NCBI RefSeq assembly: GCF_002128425.1
Contig: NZ_NESS01000003.1
Coordinates: 248,001-312,000 of the forward strand
Direction: 5' to 3'
Source of the DNA: Gottfriedia acidiceleris
GTDB lineage: Bacteria > Bacillota > Bacilli > Bacillales > Bacillaceae_G
DNA length: 64,000 nucleotides
The position numbers were made by a program, and so were the translations under genes. Of the stretch, positions 8,184 to 53,969 are shown piece by piece; position 1 is the first letter of the stretch, and each line of letters starts with the position of its first letter. The notes under the pieces are model-generated. The model made no database searches. It was not told the DNA's origin and saw only the letters and a list, made by a program, of their open reading frames with translations.

Positions 8184-11100
8184 TTACTTTACAGTAATCT
8201 GACGTGATACTGTACCGCTCTTATTTCCAGCTTTATCGACTGCGTAAATAGTAATCGTTAGTTTACCTGCTTTTTGTTTAGGTAATTTCGCAGCAAATGT
8301 ACCATTACTTGATGCATTTACATTCGCTACTACTTTAGTGCCGATAGAGATTACGATTTTAGCATTCGCTTCTGCTTTACCATTAACTTGAATCCCTGTT
8401 TTAGAACTTACAGATACACTTGTAATCACTGGTTTGTTCGGAGCTGTACGGTCTAATACTGTTGTTCTAGCTGAACCACTTTCATTTCCTGCTTGATCTT
8501 TCGCAGTTACTGAAAGAATTGTTCCTGCTTTTAGCTTACCTATTTGAATTTTGTAAGAACCGTTTGAATCTGCTTTTCCTGTACCAATCACATTCGTACC
8601 AATTTTCACAGTGATCGTTGCATTAACTTCTGTTTTACCAGTTAATGCCACATCTTTATCACTAATTGAATTTATCACAGGTACTGCAGGTGCAGTTTTG
8701 TCCAAGACAACTACATGGAAAACATTACTTTCATTTCCTGCTTGATCTTTTACAGTTACAGATAGAATTGTTCCTGCTTTTTGTTTACCTACTTGAACTA
8801 GATAATACCCGTTTGAATATGCTTTACCTGTTCCAATTACTTTATTATCATTTTTTACTATAACTGTTACCCCAGCTTCTGTACTACCTGTTATTTCTGT
8901 TTCATTATCACTAATTGAATGAATGACAATAGTAGGAGCTGTTTTGTCTAATACTGTTGTATTTGAAGCTGCACTCACATTTCCAGCTAAATCTTTTGCA
9001 GTTACAGTTAGAATTGTTCCTGCTTTTTGTTTGCCTACTTGAATTTCAAATAATCCGTTTGAATCTGCTTTTCCAGATCCGATTTCGTTATTACCATTTT
9101 TTACTGTAATTGTTGCATTTGTCTCTGTTTTACCCGTTAGTACTGTTACATTATCACCAATAGGATTAATTACAATAATAGTTGGTGCTGTTTTGTCTAA
9201 TACTGTTGTATTAGAAGTTGCACTTTCATTTCCTGCTAAATCTTTAGCCGTTACAGTAAGAATTGTTCCTGCTTTTTGCTTACCTATTTGAATTTTATAC
9301 ATACCTTTTGAATCTGCTTTTCCAGTTCCAATTTCCGTATTACCATTTTTTACTGTAACTGTTGCGTTTGTTTCTGTTTTACCTGTTAATACTGCCTCGT
9401 TATCACCAATTGGTATAATAGTTGGTGCATTTGGAGCTGTTTTGTCTAAAACTTTAACAGTTGTTGGCGCACTCACGTTTCCTGACGCGTCAGACACCGT
9501 TACCGTTAATTCAGTGCCTCCAACAAGTGGCTTAGTTTCAATATAGAACTTGCCTGCTTTGTTCGCATCCTCTGTACCGATTACCTTTCCATCTGCTTTC
9601 ACAGTAACCGTACCGTAGCCCTCTACAGTTCCAGAAATAAGCGTATCATGGTCTGTAACAGCATTCACAATCGGTACAAGAGGCGCTGTCATGTCAGTAA
9701 CTAAAACCGTTATTTCCTTGCTCACATTTCCTGATGTGTCTGTTGAACTTACATAAAGAGTTGTACCTGCTTTTTGCGGAGTAATCGTAACTGAATAGTT
9801 TCCTTTTCCATCCGCTTTTGCACTTCCAAGTATACCTTCATTATTTCGAACAACTACATTTGAACCTGCTTCTGTCTTACCTGTAACAGTCTTACTGTTA
9901 TCGCCCACTTTGTCAGCTACTGGTGCATCTGGTGACACGTTGTCACTCACTGTAATTGTTGTAACTGGGCTGACTTTGTTGTCATCATTCTTTGCTGTAA
10001 TACTTAATACTGTTCCAACTGCTTGCTTATCAATGTTCAAGCTGAAATCGCCAGCCTCATTTGTTTTACCAGTTGCAACGACGTTTTCACCGTTCTTCAC
10101 TGTGATTGTGACGTTTGGATCTGCTTTTCCTGTGATTACATTTTCGCCGTTACCTAATCCTTTTAAAACTGGTGCATTAGGTGTCGGCACAACACTAGTT
10201 GTAAGAGTTACTGCATTTGACACTCCTTCGTTTAAGCCGCCTGTAATCGATACACGGAACTGATAATTCGTGTTTTCAGCTAAGCCAGTTACCGTTATTT
10301 TGCCGTCCGTTACAGACAATGTGCCGTCTGTTGTTGCGGTTTGCCAGCTTGATCCATTATTCGTTGACTGTTGGATTTTGATCGCTGTTGCATCAACGGC
10401 TGGGTTCCAAGTAAACGTTGCTTTGTGTGCACTGCTATCTACAGTTTTGAATGTGTTTACGCTTGTTGCAATACCAAGTACGTTAAAGTAATCAGTTGCG
10501 TATTTTCCATCTACCATTTCTTTTGGTGTGATTAAGGAATCTGGGTTTGATTTATACAAGTTACTTACTAAGAAATTCATATCTTGCTTATCGACAATAC
10601 CATCTTGGTTTAGATCTTCGATATTGAATTTTGTTGTATTTTGCACTCCAAATATTTTCGCAACTTGTTTCACGTCTAAGACGTCTATCACGCCGTCGCC
10701 GTTCACATCACCAGCTGCTCCGTAAGGTTGGAGGTTTCCGATGTATTTATACTCTGCAATATCGTCACCCCATGGAGATTTTTTACCAAGTGTGATAGAT
10801 TGTATGCTCTTTAAGTGACCTGGTCCTTCCACAATGAACTTGATTGGATCTTTTGAAAGTGGAATGCCTTTGATATCGATGTAGCCATAACTATCAATTG
10901 TACCTTGTATTTTCGTTCCGTCCGTTAGTTGTGCATACCCTTTAGCGCCAATGCTATCCAACTTCACTGTGAAGTTATTTTTAAGCCCTTGAAGTTTCAC
11001 GTACGATTGTATTTGTGAATGCTTCGGAATGATTTGGAATTGATTTAAACGGCTAAATGCTGGAATCTCTTTTGTTTCATCTGTGCCGTATTGTGTCATA

Positions 11101-33715: not shown

Positions 33716-34501
33716 ATGAACTATTTTTTTCTATTCGTCATACTATTCAGTCTTACACTCTCAGCCTGTTCAAATAGTAAGATCGTACAAGAAGTTCATC
33801 TAAATAAATCATCAGTTTCAGCTGCAGGGAACAAAGAATGGTCTTACACAGGAAAAACCGGACCTAATTATTGGAGTTCAATCAATAAAGAATATGCACT
33901 ATGTTCCAATGGTAAACAACAATCTCCAGTTAATATTGATCAAACTATAAAAAAATCATTACCTTTAGGAATAAACTATCATTATGATCTTTTTAAAATA
34001 GAAAGGTCGCATTACACGGTAAAATTCATTCCGGTTAATCACTCCAACTCAATTAATTTAAATGGAACAATCTATATATTACAACAATTTCATTTCCATA
34101 CTCCAAGTGAACATACAATAAACGGAAAACAAAGTGATTTAGAAATTCATTTTATAAATCAAAATAAAAAAAAATCTATTATAACAATAGGAGTTCTTGT
34201 TAATAGCGGTAGATTGAATAAAGAATTCCAAAAAATCCTTAATGTAAAGCCTATTGATGAGGAGCTTGGGGGAAAAGTTGTAAAACTAAATTTGCAATCG
34301 TTTATTCCGTATACTAGTAAAAAAGTATCCTACACTGGCTCTTTTACAACTCCTCCTTGTACTGAAGGGATTAAATGGATTGTCTTTTACAAACCTATAC
34401 AATTTTCAGAAGAACAAATCCATTCTTACCAAAATTACTTCGATCCAAATAGCCGTCCCGTCCAGCCATTAAATGGTAGAGATTTATTTGAATCTTGGTA
34501 A
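33716..34501 (+). CDS. cah: alpha-class carbonic anhydrase, lipoprotein
   Basis: Exported enzyme of 261 residues hydrating CO2. A signal peptide ends in the lipobox LSAC. The alpha-CA fold starts at WSYTGKTGPNYW (GKxGPxxW signature), with zinc ligands in FHFHTPSEH and the third His in LEIHFIN. The substrate pocket is GSFTTPPCTEGIKW. I start it at ATG 33716 after AAGGAAAGG; an ATG 48 bp upstream lacks a signal peptide. Alpha-class enzymes are uncommon in Bacillaceae. A beta-class enzyme is encoded convergently 590 bp away, with a repeat array in between. Confidence 0.93.
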   Translation: MNYFFLFVILFSLTLSACSNSKIVQEVHLNKSSVSAAGNKEWSYTGKTGPNYWSSINKEYALCSNGKQQSPVNIDQTIKKSLPLGINYHYDLFKIERSHYTVKFIPVNHSNSINLNGTIYILQQFHFHTPSEHTINGKQSDLEIHFINQNKKKSIITIGVLVNSGRLNKEFQKILNVKPIDEELGGKVVKLNLQSFIPYTSKKVSYTGSFTTPPCTEGIKWIVFYKPIQFSEEQIHSYQNYFDPNSRPVQPLNGRDLFESW

Positions 34502-34555
34502 TTAAACTCATCAAAAGATTCGTGGGTATGTAGGGAAGCAAGAAGTTGAAAATAC

Positions 34556-34999
34556 CTTACTCATAACGAGTTCATGCGTAAGTATAAACACATGATGATG
34601 AAAACAACTTACTCATAACGGGTTCTCATGAGTAAGTAAAACGCATGATGTTGAAAACAACTTACTCATAACGAGTTCATGCGTAAGTATAAACACATGA
34701 TGATGAAACTAACTTACTCATAACGGGTTCATGAGTAAGTATAAACACATGATGTTTGAAAACAACTTACTCATAACGGGTTCATGCGTAACTAAAAATG
34801 CTTGATGACAAAAATAACTTACTCATAACGAGTTCATGAGTTACTTAAAATGCTTGATGACAAAAATAACTTACTCATAACGAGTTCATGAGTTACTTAA
34901 AATGCTTGATGACAAAAATAACTTACTCATAACGAGTTCATGAGTTACTTAAAATGCAAGAAAATAAAAATAACAAACTCAAAACACGTAGTGGAAATC
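34556..34999. repeat. tandem array of 52-53 bp hairpin units
   Basis: Eight units begin with CTTACTCATAACG at 34556, 34608, 34661, 34713, 34766, 34818, 34870 and 34922, plus a decayed ninth near 34974. Steps are 52 or 53 bp. In the best units ACTTACTCAT pairs with ATGAGTAAGT across AACGGGTTC. Units 1-5 end in a TATAAACACATGATG-type tail, units 6-8 in a TTAAAATGCTTGATG-type tail, and unit 5 is a hybrid. Units 6 and 7 are identical. The period is not a multiple of three, so it is not coding. No plus-strand terminator precedes it, so it probably lies in the 3' untranslated part of the alpha-CA mRNA. Confidence 0.92.
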
Positions 35000-35044
35000 A
35001 ACATGAAATTTCTTATTTACTTGAAAACTTTTTTTCAACAGCCT

Positions 35045-35079
35045 AAAAAAAGTTATCCTACTTAAAGGATAACTTTTTT
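35045..35079. terminator. bidirectional terminator between the carbonic anhydrase genes
   Basis: A stem of about 13 bp (AAAAAAGTTATCC/GGATAACTTTTTT, 8-nt loop) can stop both the alpha-CA transcript coming through the repeat array and the beta-CA transcript. Confidence 0.9.
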
Positions 35080-35089
35080 GTATAAATCG

Positions 35090-35653
35090 TTATTCAACAG
35101 TTTTTTCGTCTCGATTAACTACTTCTAACTTCCCTGTATGTGGATCAATTACTAAACCATGAATTTCAACTTCTTTTGGTACAAGTGGATGGTTTTTAAT
35201 AATAGAAACACTGTGGTTAACACTGTCGTATACATTCGTAAAACCAGTTAACCATTTGTCTAAATCTAGACCTGAGAAGCCTAAAATTTCTAGGTTTTCT
35301 TCTTTAATTCCTTGTTCAACCATTTTTTCTTTCATTCTTTTAGGGTTTGTATTCCCCATTCCACATTCATGGTGACCGATTACTAATACTTCTTTTGCAC
35401 CAAGTTCATAAATAGAAACTAGAATACTTCTCATAACTGAACCAAACGGATGCGCAATAACTGCACCAGCCGTTTTAATCATTTTTACGTCACCGTTTCT
35501 AATATCAAGAGCCTTTGGTAAAAGCTCAACTAGACGTGTATCCATACAAGTAACAACTACAACTTCTTTGTTAGGAAATTTTGAAGCTATGTATTGCTCA
35601 TATTCCTTATTCTCAACAAACTTTTTATTAAATTCTAAAATCTGATCTAACAT
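35090..35653 (-). CDS. beta-class carbonic anhydrase
   Basis: Cytosolic enzyme of 187 residues. Zinc ligands are in VVTCMDTRL (Cys and Asp) and GHHECGMG (His and Cys), with RNAG-like KTAGAVI between. It resembles Bacillus YtiB/YvdA. The start is ATG 35653 with GGAGGG about ten bases upstream. It supplies bicarbonate inside the cell, while the neighbouring alpha enzyme works outside the membrane, so the pair could move CO2/bicarbonate across the envelope. That coupling is inference. Confidence 0.92.
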   Translation of the reverse strand: MLDQILEFNKKFVENKEYEQYIASKFPNKEVVVVTCMDTRLVELLPKALDIRNGDVKMIKTAGAVIAHPFGSVMRSILVSIYELGAKEVLVIGHHECGMGNTNPKRMKEKMVEQGIKEENLEILGFSGLDLDKWLTGFTNVYDSVNHSVSIIKNHPLVPKEVEIHGLVIDPHTGKLEVVNRDEKTVE

Positions 35654-35938
35654 AAAAAAATTCCCTCCAAACAAATATTAAGAGCTTTTTTCTATACCTA
35701 TAATGAAGGAAAAGCTCATAATATACAACCATTTTGCACTCATTTATAGTATTATTCTAAAATTATGTTTTCATTTATACCGTTTAATTTTTATTTTTTA
35801 GTATGGTAAATATACCGTCAGACGATTAATTAATCGAAATGCTTATTTTTAAATTCCCATTAATTTCTATCAAATTTTTTTTATTTTTAAAGTTTATATT
35901 GTACACTAGATTTAGTCTTTGATGAGGAGTGAATTAAA

Positions 35939-52819: not shown

Positions 52820-52827
52820 GCTCTGTA

Positions 52828-52923
52828 CTTATCTTTCGGGTTCCCCCGTGGAATTGGCACGGTATTCAAAGAACCCGTTGCCGAGGTTTCATAGGGCCAG
52901 TCCCTCCACCTCTCTGGATAAGA
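52828..52923 (-). promoter_or_regulatory. SAM-I riboswitch (S-box), second of a tandem pair
   Basis: The minus strand carries the S-box core: CTTATCCAGAGAGGTGGAGG at the 5' side, GGCCCTATGAAACCTCGGCA in the middle, GGGTTC...GTGCCAATTCC, and P1 closing with GAAAGATAAG. The downstream terminator completes the switch. High SAM should stop transcription. No intact gene follows within 450 bp on this strand. Confidence 0.95.
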
Positions 52924-52968
52924 AATAATATTATTTGGTTTCTATAAGTTTAGTTAATAATGAAGAAA

Positions 52969-52989
52969 CCTCTTCAAAGAAAGAAGAGG
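52969..52989 (-). terminator. expression-platform terminator of SAM riboswitch 1
   Basis: A 7-bp stem (CCTCTTC/GAAGAGG, 7-nt loop) is followed by TTTCTTC. It is weaker than the one after riboswitch 2. Confidence 0.6.
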
Positions 52990-53009
52990 ATTAGCTTTAA
53001 AATCAACTC

Positions 53010-53115
53010 TTCTTATCTCTCAAGGCTTTACCTCGATGGAATTAGCACAGTGTTCAACTAGAACCCGCTGCTGAGGCTTCAAAGGGCCAAATCCCTCCAC
53101 CTCTCTAAATAAGAT
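53010..53115 (-). promoter_or_regulatory. SAM-I riboswitch (S-box), first of a tandem pair
   Basis: The same core as the second copy: CTTATTTAGAGAGGTGGAGG, then GGCCCTTTGAAGCCTCAGCA, GGGTTC, GTGCTAATTCC and a closing GAGATAAG. It differs from copy 2 at many positions but keeps all conserved blocks, so both were likely under selection. The two copies start about 190 bp apart in one leader. Confidence 0.95.
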
Positions 53116-53699: not shown

Positions 53700-53969
53700 A
53701 GTGAAGAAAATCTATGACGAGAAGAGTAGCCCAAGAACCTAGTTCTACAGAGAATCAACGTTTGGTGAGAGTTGATGTGCGAGACTTGTGTGAAAATCAT
53801 CTCTGAGATGCAAAGCTGAATGACTAGTAAGCTTTGCCGGATTGTCCGCCGTTACCATGGAACACGTATGTTTGTACGTTGATCGAGAGCCGCAGTACGC
53901 TTTTTCCTGCGGAAGTAGGGTGGTATCGCGAGTAAGCTCGTCCCTAACCATAGGGACGGGCTTTTTTTA
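53700..53969 (+). promoter_or_regulatory. T-box leader of brnQ, probable isoleucine specifier
   Basis: Contains the T-box core AGGGTGGTATCGCG (53917-53930) that pairs with the uncharged tRNA end, then a terminator (CTCGTCCCT/AGGGACGGG, T-run to 53969). Stem I includes the GACGAGAAGAGTAGC start and AGAGAATC segments. The likely specifier codon is ATC at 53796-53798 within GAAAATCATCTCTGAG, i.e. isoleucine. This fits the downstream branched-chain amino-acid carrier: uncharged tRNA-Ile would allow read-through. The specifier is inferred from position, not folded. Confidence 0.9.

Follow-up and report, generated by a model that had tools for sequence, protein, structure and literature searches.

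In the window analysed here, a stretch of 64,000 nucleotides from Gottfriedia acidiceleris, a tandem array of short palindromic units lies between an alpha carbonic anhydrase (alpha-CA) gene (33716..34501, + strand; Pfam PF00194, E 1.9e-33) and a beta carbonic anhydrase (beta-CA) gene (35090..35674, − strand; Pfam PF00484, E 6.6e-17); both flanks had been assigned in this way by a sequence-only reading. In register, the array runs from 34504 to 35000 on the + strand and comprises ten positions, at steps of 52, 52, 53, 52, 53, 52, 52, 52 and 52 bp. Eight of these are good units, located at 34556..34607, 34608..34660 (with an 11-nt loop), 34661..34712, 34713..34765 (with perfect 10-bp arms), 34766..34817, 34818..34869, 34870..34921 and 34922..34973 (all +), and the steps among them are 52, 53, 52, 53, 52, 52 and 52 bp. 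A decayed unit bounds them on either side. The last (34974..35000, +) is recognized by its register; the first (34504..34555, +), recognized by its register and a residual CTCAT, starts two bases after the alpha-CA stop codon (34499–34501) and was absent from the sequence-only reading, which had described eight units and a decayed one at 52/53-bp steps. That description is confirmed by TRF (period 52, 8.4 copies, 34547–34985), by a search with the core motif, which at no more than three mismatches gave eight matches in the window and none in 100 dinucleotide shuffles, and by the measured steps. Between the array and the beta-CA gene there is a perfect 14-bp inverted repeat with A and T runs (35046..35079, not assigned to a strand), probably a bidirectional intrinsic terminator. 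A terminator like it is kept in relatives without the array, as seen by eye in the sequences of G001, G002, G008 and G010.

The 10-bp arm pair ACTTACTCAT/ATGAGTAAGT, previously read as the hairpin of the best copies, is indeed perfect in two of the eight units, those at 34608 (loop of 11 nt) and 34713, and the remaining six have at least one arm base altered relative to it. The division into two sub-types and a hybrid unit holds as well. Units 34818, 34870 and 34922, which form the second sub-type, have the right arm ATGAGTTAC in common, units 34556, 34608, 34661 and 34713 share a GTAAG ending, and unit 34766 is a mixed one, the hybrid.

The window array is one of about 25 similar arrays dispersed in the source genome. 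A pattern search of that genome gave 50 forward and 24 reverse matches, with none for the reversed control. Among the matches listed in a search for isolated sites, about 100 of 252, those without a mismatch fell at array places. With a covariance model built from 37 units we obtained at least 136 matches at no fewer than 27 places, lower bounds because 150 of 7715 candidates were scored; 25 of the 27 places held two or more matches. Units within arrays are oriented head to tail, the flanking genes are of many unrelated kinds, and several draft contigs end in arrays. For the measurements below, an array was required to have one step of 49–55 bp and one exact core per cluster, with at most two mismatches per unit. 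When this rule was applied to the 27 source-genome loci and the window, no array was returned for L027, L038 and L181; L027 (C11:22445) had matched the pattern but yielded no unit, and L038 contains two units, 53 bp apart.

It had been suggested that the array ties the two carbonic anhydrase genes together. This is not borne out, and we reject the link: the same unit occurs at no fewer than 26 other places beside unrelated genes, although the spacing there is not random but 52 bp again, and relatives keep the gene pair without the unit or with a different number of units. In 11 of 12 relatives the two genes are again found as a convergent pair. Its gap measures 51, 61 and 78 bp in G001, G002 and G008, respectively, and contains the terminator only. 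By eye, units are present in the gap of the source genome, G003, G012, G011 and G005 and are decayed in G009; G010 and perhaps G006 show unit traces, and G007 has other sequence. The conservation of the convergent pair, and the presence of units between the genes in several species, would fit an array that coordinates the two genes, but the dispersal of the family and the persistence of the pair without any unit lead us to consider such coordination extremely improbable.

A second repeat-like stretch of ~110–150 bp, GGAACGGAAGG...GCTCGACTCCTATGGGA...GGAAAGCGAGCA...TGTAGTGGAAATCAAC, was seen by eye in the CA gap of G009 and G006 (L164, L170), and a diverged form of it in that of G007 (L171). 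In several species its tail directly adjoins the array (by eye), and it gave no Rfam match.

Within the genus, the unit model (E 0.001) matched in 10 of 13 genomes, the source genome included, and genus-wide counts with it are lower bounds, 98 candidates having been scored per genome under stricter filters. The other three genomes gave no match to the model, from which we conclude that the element is dispensable. None of 47 other genomes matched. Named records with the unit include G. luciferensis CH01 and several Bacillus sp. inside the genus, and Bacillus marasmi, Pseudalkalibacillus salsuginis, Alkalihalobacillus sp. YIM B00296 and Bacillus sp. Marseille-Q3570 outside Gottfriedia. Arrays in three further genera and in Bacillus marasmi have different arms and linkers and still a 51–52 bp step. 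We also used a looser pattern (CTCAT-N9-ATGAG, a gap of 18–48, CTCAT-N7..13-ATGAG), which allows a step of about 37–67 bp and, as with all the pattern searches, detects only units with a CTCAT/ATGAG core. Across the order, 19 of 397 genomes, belonging to four of 135 genera, contained such pairs; across the phylum one of 398 genomes did, the source genome. Among the matches listed for the order, the pairs were 69–71 letters long, with one exception seen. Ten matches to this pattern in IMG/VR had lengths of 64–85, none of 69–71, and judged by these lengths were taken as chance. No plasmid or phage copy was found by blastn at E 1e-5, and the open-access literature searched yielded no published description of this repeat family.

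The step between units was measured in 88 arrays. Of 506 successive distances, 414 are exactly 52 bp, 46 are 51, 10 are 53 and 6 are 50, giving 476 at 50–53 bp and 30 others; the spacing is thus constant and near a multiple of the helical repeat. The mode is 52 in 76 of the 80 arrays outside genus g14, and within g14 five arrays have a mode of 51 and three of 52. The search that allowed about 37–67 bp placed 162 of 183 steps at 52 as well. Rows from 11 of 35 named stretches were used (eight of G. luciferensis, L065, L075 and L078), and 11 of 20 loci from G010 and 19 of 20 from G003 passed the array rule. The failing loci of these two genomes comprise an array of eight units whose core has changed (L183), three loci with two units (L190, L196, L197), three with one unit at a contig end (L189, L192, L202) and three with an isolated single unit in mid-contig (L191, L198, L211; 3 of the 40 G010 and G003 places).

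We compared how length and sequence become fixed within 37 Gottfriedia arrays that had four or more scored units. Of the linker sites, 77 have a non-consensus base throughout an array and 409 are variable within one, as against no array fixed at another step and 24 deviating steps (Fisher p 0.036), which on its own is modest evidence. Indels are present in single units of Gottfriedia arrays. A 24-unit array of Bacillus marasmi (L065, 3510–4750) contains nine units with 11-nt loops and fifteen with 9-nt loops; all its steps are 52 bp except for a single 53 where the unit types join.

The Gottfriedia unit consists of a dyad core, CTCATRA-N5-TYATGAG, and an A-rich linker, together 52 bp. Across 259 interior units, departures per site from the consensus were 0.025 in CTCAT and 0.028 in ATGAG as against 0.281 in the linker, a difference that is biased towards intact cores because the array rule required an exact core and at most two mismatches, and so missed L183. 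Low departure was also found at columns outside this filter (0.02–0.07, for example, at columns 2, 17 and 18). L183 (G010, about 1241–1656 on the reverse-complement ruler) has eight units at 52-bp steps, most of them with the right core ATGGG. The loop is 9 nt in 563 of 594 units. The arms vary by genus (TTACTCAT, GTCCTCAT/ATGAGGAC, TGCACTCAT and GTACTCAT), and at one shared locus both arms have changed, to CTTC/GAAG in the two units of G003 and CTTA/TAAG in the six units of G. luciferensis; the loop is AAAGGGTTC in all but one of the eight. CTTC/GAAG is found in 23 of 25 scored G010 units. Outer-arm likeness across loci is 0.93 in G010 versus 0.62–0.71 in the source genome, G003 and G. luciferensis; a genome-wide arm change is therefore seen in one species only.

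Linker identity between genera is 0.24–0.40, compared with 0.30–0.35 for shuffled sequence, in nine of ten genus pairs, and 0.48 compared with 0.35 in the tenth, Gottfriedia and Pseudalkalibacillus; these comparisons were ungapped, so that the 51-bp units of g14 are in part misaligned. In nearly all genus pairs, loops and outer arms remain above the shuffled level. Curved DNA phased at 10.4 bp is not supported: in 63 arrays, AA/TT power over shuffled sequence is raised at 10.4 bp (z 6.4), but the linker A-tract periods of 7.4 bp (z 19.4) and 8.7 bp (z 10.5) are stronger.

Arrays lie preferentially behind the 3' ends of genes. For the 67 of 88 arrays that had a gene on both sides, as called by a crude longest-ORF script, the gaps are tandem in 43 cases, convergent in 19 and divergent in 5, compared with 245, 69 and 72 among background gene pairs at the same loci, which include the array gaps themselves (convergent versus divergent, p 0.007). 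Of the 43 arrays between tandem genes, 35 are closer to the 3' end (p 4e-5). At 58 of 91 gene ends, a terminator is predicted to separate the stop codon from the array, a proportion that stands without a matched control, and terminator-like sites occur inside the array at 24 of 91. In the window, no terminator is predicted from the alpha-CA stop to the array.

Relative to transcription, 26 arrays are co-directional and 17 opposite (p 0.22), with some orientations uncertain. These numbers come from a rule based on similarity to the consensus. An earlier rule, based on the A-richness of the linker, had given 28 versus 15 and placed 11 flank pairs in opposite sense; the second changed the orientation of 8 of 88 arrays, and under it arrays that share flanks have the same sense in 32 pairs and the opposite sense in 3. 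The second rule seems worse for G010, where linker identity falls from 0.62 to 0.53, and some orientations must therefore be regarded as uncertain; L063, a near-tie, by eye points opposite to its computed orientation. The arms by genus, A-tract period, tag, genus-pair linker comparison and one linker-identity analysis rest on the first rule. The placement of the arrays, the predicted terminators and the lack of a significant strand bias argue for an element that acts as DNA, or for an insertion that is tolerated, and against an RNA specific to one strand.

Groups of arrays with the same flanks in different genomes number at least 16 by the second rule and 13 by the first. Linker identity by the second rule is 0.744 within the same array, 0.603 at the same locus in other species, 0.566 at other loci in the same species and 0.538 elsewhere (0.741, 0.663, 0.566 and 0.529, respectively, by the first). 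Given the shared flanks and this gradient, we believe that the arrays are of old origin and have mostly been passed down at fixed loci, subject to some local turnover. The same gradient would also result from passive local turnover.

Several known systems resemble the family in part. CIRCE, the HrcA operator, consists of two inverted arms of ~9 bp separated by 9 bp, forms a dyad site bound by a dimeric repressor and acts as a single operator at heat-shock promoters. Our unit shares the dyad form but has other arms and occurs in tandem arrays, rarely between divergent genes (5 of 67). The arrays also differ from CRISPR, in which spacers are unrelated; here the linkers within an array are alike, with a mean identity of 0.74. 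REP/BIME elements are short intergenic palindromes in many copies and clusters, tandemly reiterated in some species, for which functions in supercoiling and in the stability of mRNA have been proposed (PMC3733652, PMC8266576). The present family likewise consists of short intergenic palindromes in many clustered copies. Membership among REP/BIME elements mobilised by RAYT is nevertheless rejected on the tag, the tracking of the transposase and the arrangement. GTAG lies within 18 nt of 27 of 284 Gottfriedia units and 5 of 47 g14 units, about one unit in ten, and a CGTC tag was found in 3 of 381 units from all groups. Head-to-head dimers and singletons do not predominate; our arrays are head to tail, with a constant 51–52 bp step, and their hosts are Bacillales. 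The Y1 transposase family, matched in 31 of 37 genomes searched, does not track the arrays and is rejected as their mobiliser: there were no matches in G002, G005 and G006, which have arrays, and five in G004, which has none. Four Y1 transposase-family matches lie close together in G004, on contig C29 (292233–303620).

Among stem-loop repeats of Bacillaceae, Bhal-1, Bant-1 and Bcr1 are likewise dispersed and mostly intergenic, but they are listed at 72–167 bp (PMC2267715), and 52-bp tandem units are absent from the descriptions consulted. The TAACTGA direct repeats of Beggiatoaceae also occur in groups in numerous intergenic regions and are patchily distributed in phylogeny (PMC4679880), a likeness to our family; their units are of seven bases and without a dyad, unlike the 52-bp palindromic unit, lie mostly upstream of start codons and have been proposed to act in translational control.

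A repeat length that is kept while sequences diverge across related bacteria suggests a DNA structure read by a putative protein rather than a carbonic anhydrase switch. We tentatively favour the reading that the window array belongs to a dispersed family of cis-acting DNA elements, each a phased array of dyad sites for a putative dimeric protein, five helical turns apart, with a chromosomal role. We give this reading a probability of about 0.40, lowered from 0.42 because the figure for dyad conservation is biased. The putative dimer would bind each dyad. With units 51–52 bp apart, or five turns at 10.2–10.4 bp per turn, successive dimers would occupy the same side of the helix and could cooperate. 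Their likely role would be chromosomal, in fixing, bridging or buffering supercoils behind gene ends, and not in the control of neighbouring genes. Such an operation may be likened to that of the BIME arrays of E. coli, of which BIME-2 is bound by gyrase. Tandem protein-binding sites at helical phase had already been proposed for this array and remain the reading we prefer, as the step of 51–52 bp is kept though linkers are near the shuffled level. The data show that the family is dispersed, that its step is constant, that every unit has a palindrome, that arrays lie behind 3' ends without significant strand preference and that array loci are shared between species; the protein and its binding, helical phasing as the cause of the step and the chromosomal role are what we infer. 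A further proposal, which we think unlikely, is that the arrays form a chromosomal ruler: a putative Bacillales architectural protein would co-evolve with the dyad and assemble along the five-turn arrays, with the unit sequence free to drift almost completely and the step fixed. If true, BIME/gyrase sites would have a Gram-positive counterpart, located in quiet positions past the ends of genes.

Intergenic palindromes of bacteria are usually attributed to mobile-element copying or to mRNA stability, and both have to be weighed here. Serial hairpins in mRNA 3' ends, stabilising or terminating transcripts, would suit the proximity of arrays to gene 3' ends, the folding of the consensus unit (−6.3 and −9.6 kcal/mol on the two strands), the window itself, where the array follows the alpha-CA gene with no predicted terminator ahead of it, and the terminator-like sites inside some arrays. 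Such an RNA had been put forward for this array as well, and our data do not support it: arrays occur in both orientations, a predicted terminator precedes the array at most gene ends (the uncontrolled count above), and no covariation was found in the 37-unit alignment, in which shuffles pair equally well or better. The outer pairs 1–27 and 3–25 are mispaired in 26 and 18 of the 37 units, and only 22 of 473 non-Watson–Crick outer pairs are G–T. Rfam gave no gathering-level match on the window array or on 12 array/CA-gap loci; hits to the array region itself, with E values up to 5, scored far below gathering. Moreover, an RNA would not need a fixed 52-nt step. We therefore reject a structured RNA and judge the hairpin reading very unlikely.

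Copying is a stronger contender, although still somewhat unlikely in our judgement. The family would be a selfish or non-autonomous repeat whose units or arrays are copied between genes by a putative enzyme and expand in tandem, the step being the footprint of that enzyme; arrays would accumulate downstream of terminators, where an insertion costs little. This would account for the spread of the unit to at least 27 places next to unrelated genes, the free copy number at the CA site, the many arrays beyond predicted terminators and the few isolated units (L191, L198 and L211), but Y1 transposases, the one transposase family examined, do not track the arrays, the array groups with shared flanks in different genomes indicate slow turnover, and blastn at E 1e-5 detected no copy in plasmids or phages. 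An old, functionless satellite, maintained by slippage and unequal exchange with its unit length simply inherited, would explain the homogeneity within arrays, the locus-specific variants, and a CA site that varies in copy number and in some relatives holds no array at all. We regard it as quite unlikely, since the unit length is constant though linkers approach the shuffled level between genera, the step remains 52 in Bacillus marasmi despite a 2-nt change in the loop, and the arms and several flanking columns are far more conserved than the linker, albeit by the biased figure. The phased-dyad reading takes the same contrast, a length kept across genera when most of the sequence is not, as pointing to DNA geometry as the selected trait. 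A reader protein, if it exists, would be a new nucleoid factor; without one, the family would offer a clean case of how a bacterial satellite keeps its period.

Elsewhere in the window, Rfam matches indicate two tandem SAM riboswitches (52826–53115, −) and a nearby T-box leader on the other strand (53705–53948, +), and TRF detects a tandem repeat with a period of 249 bp and 3.8 copies at 8477–9412.
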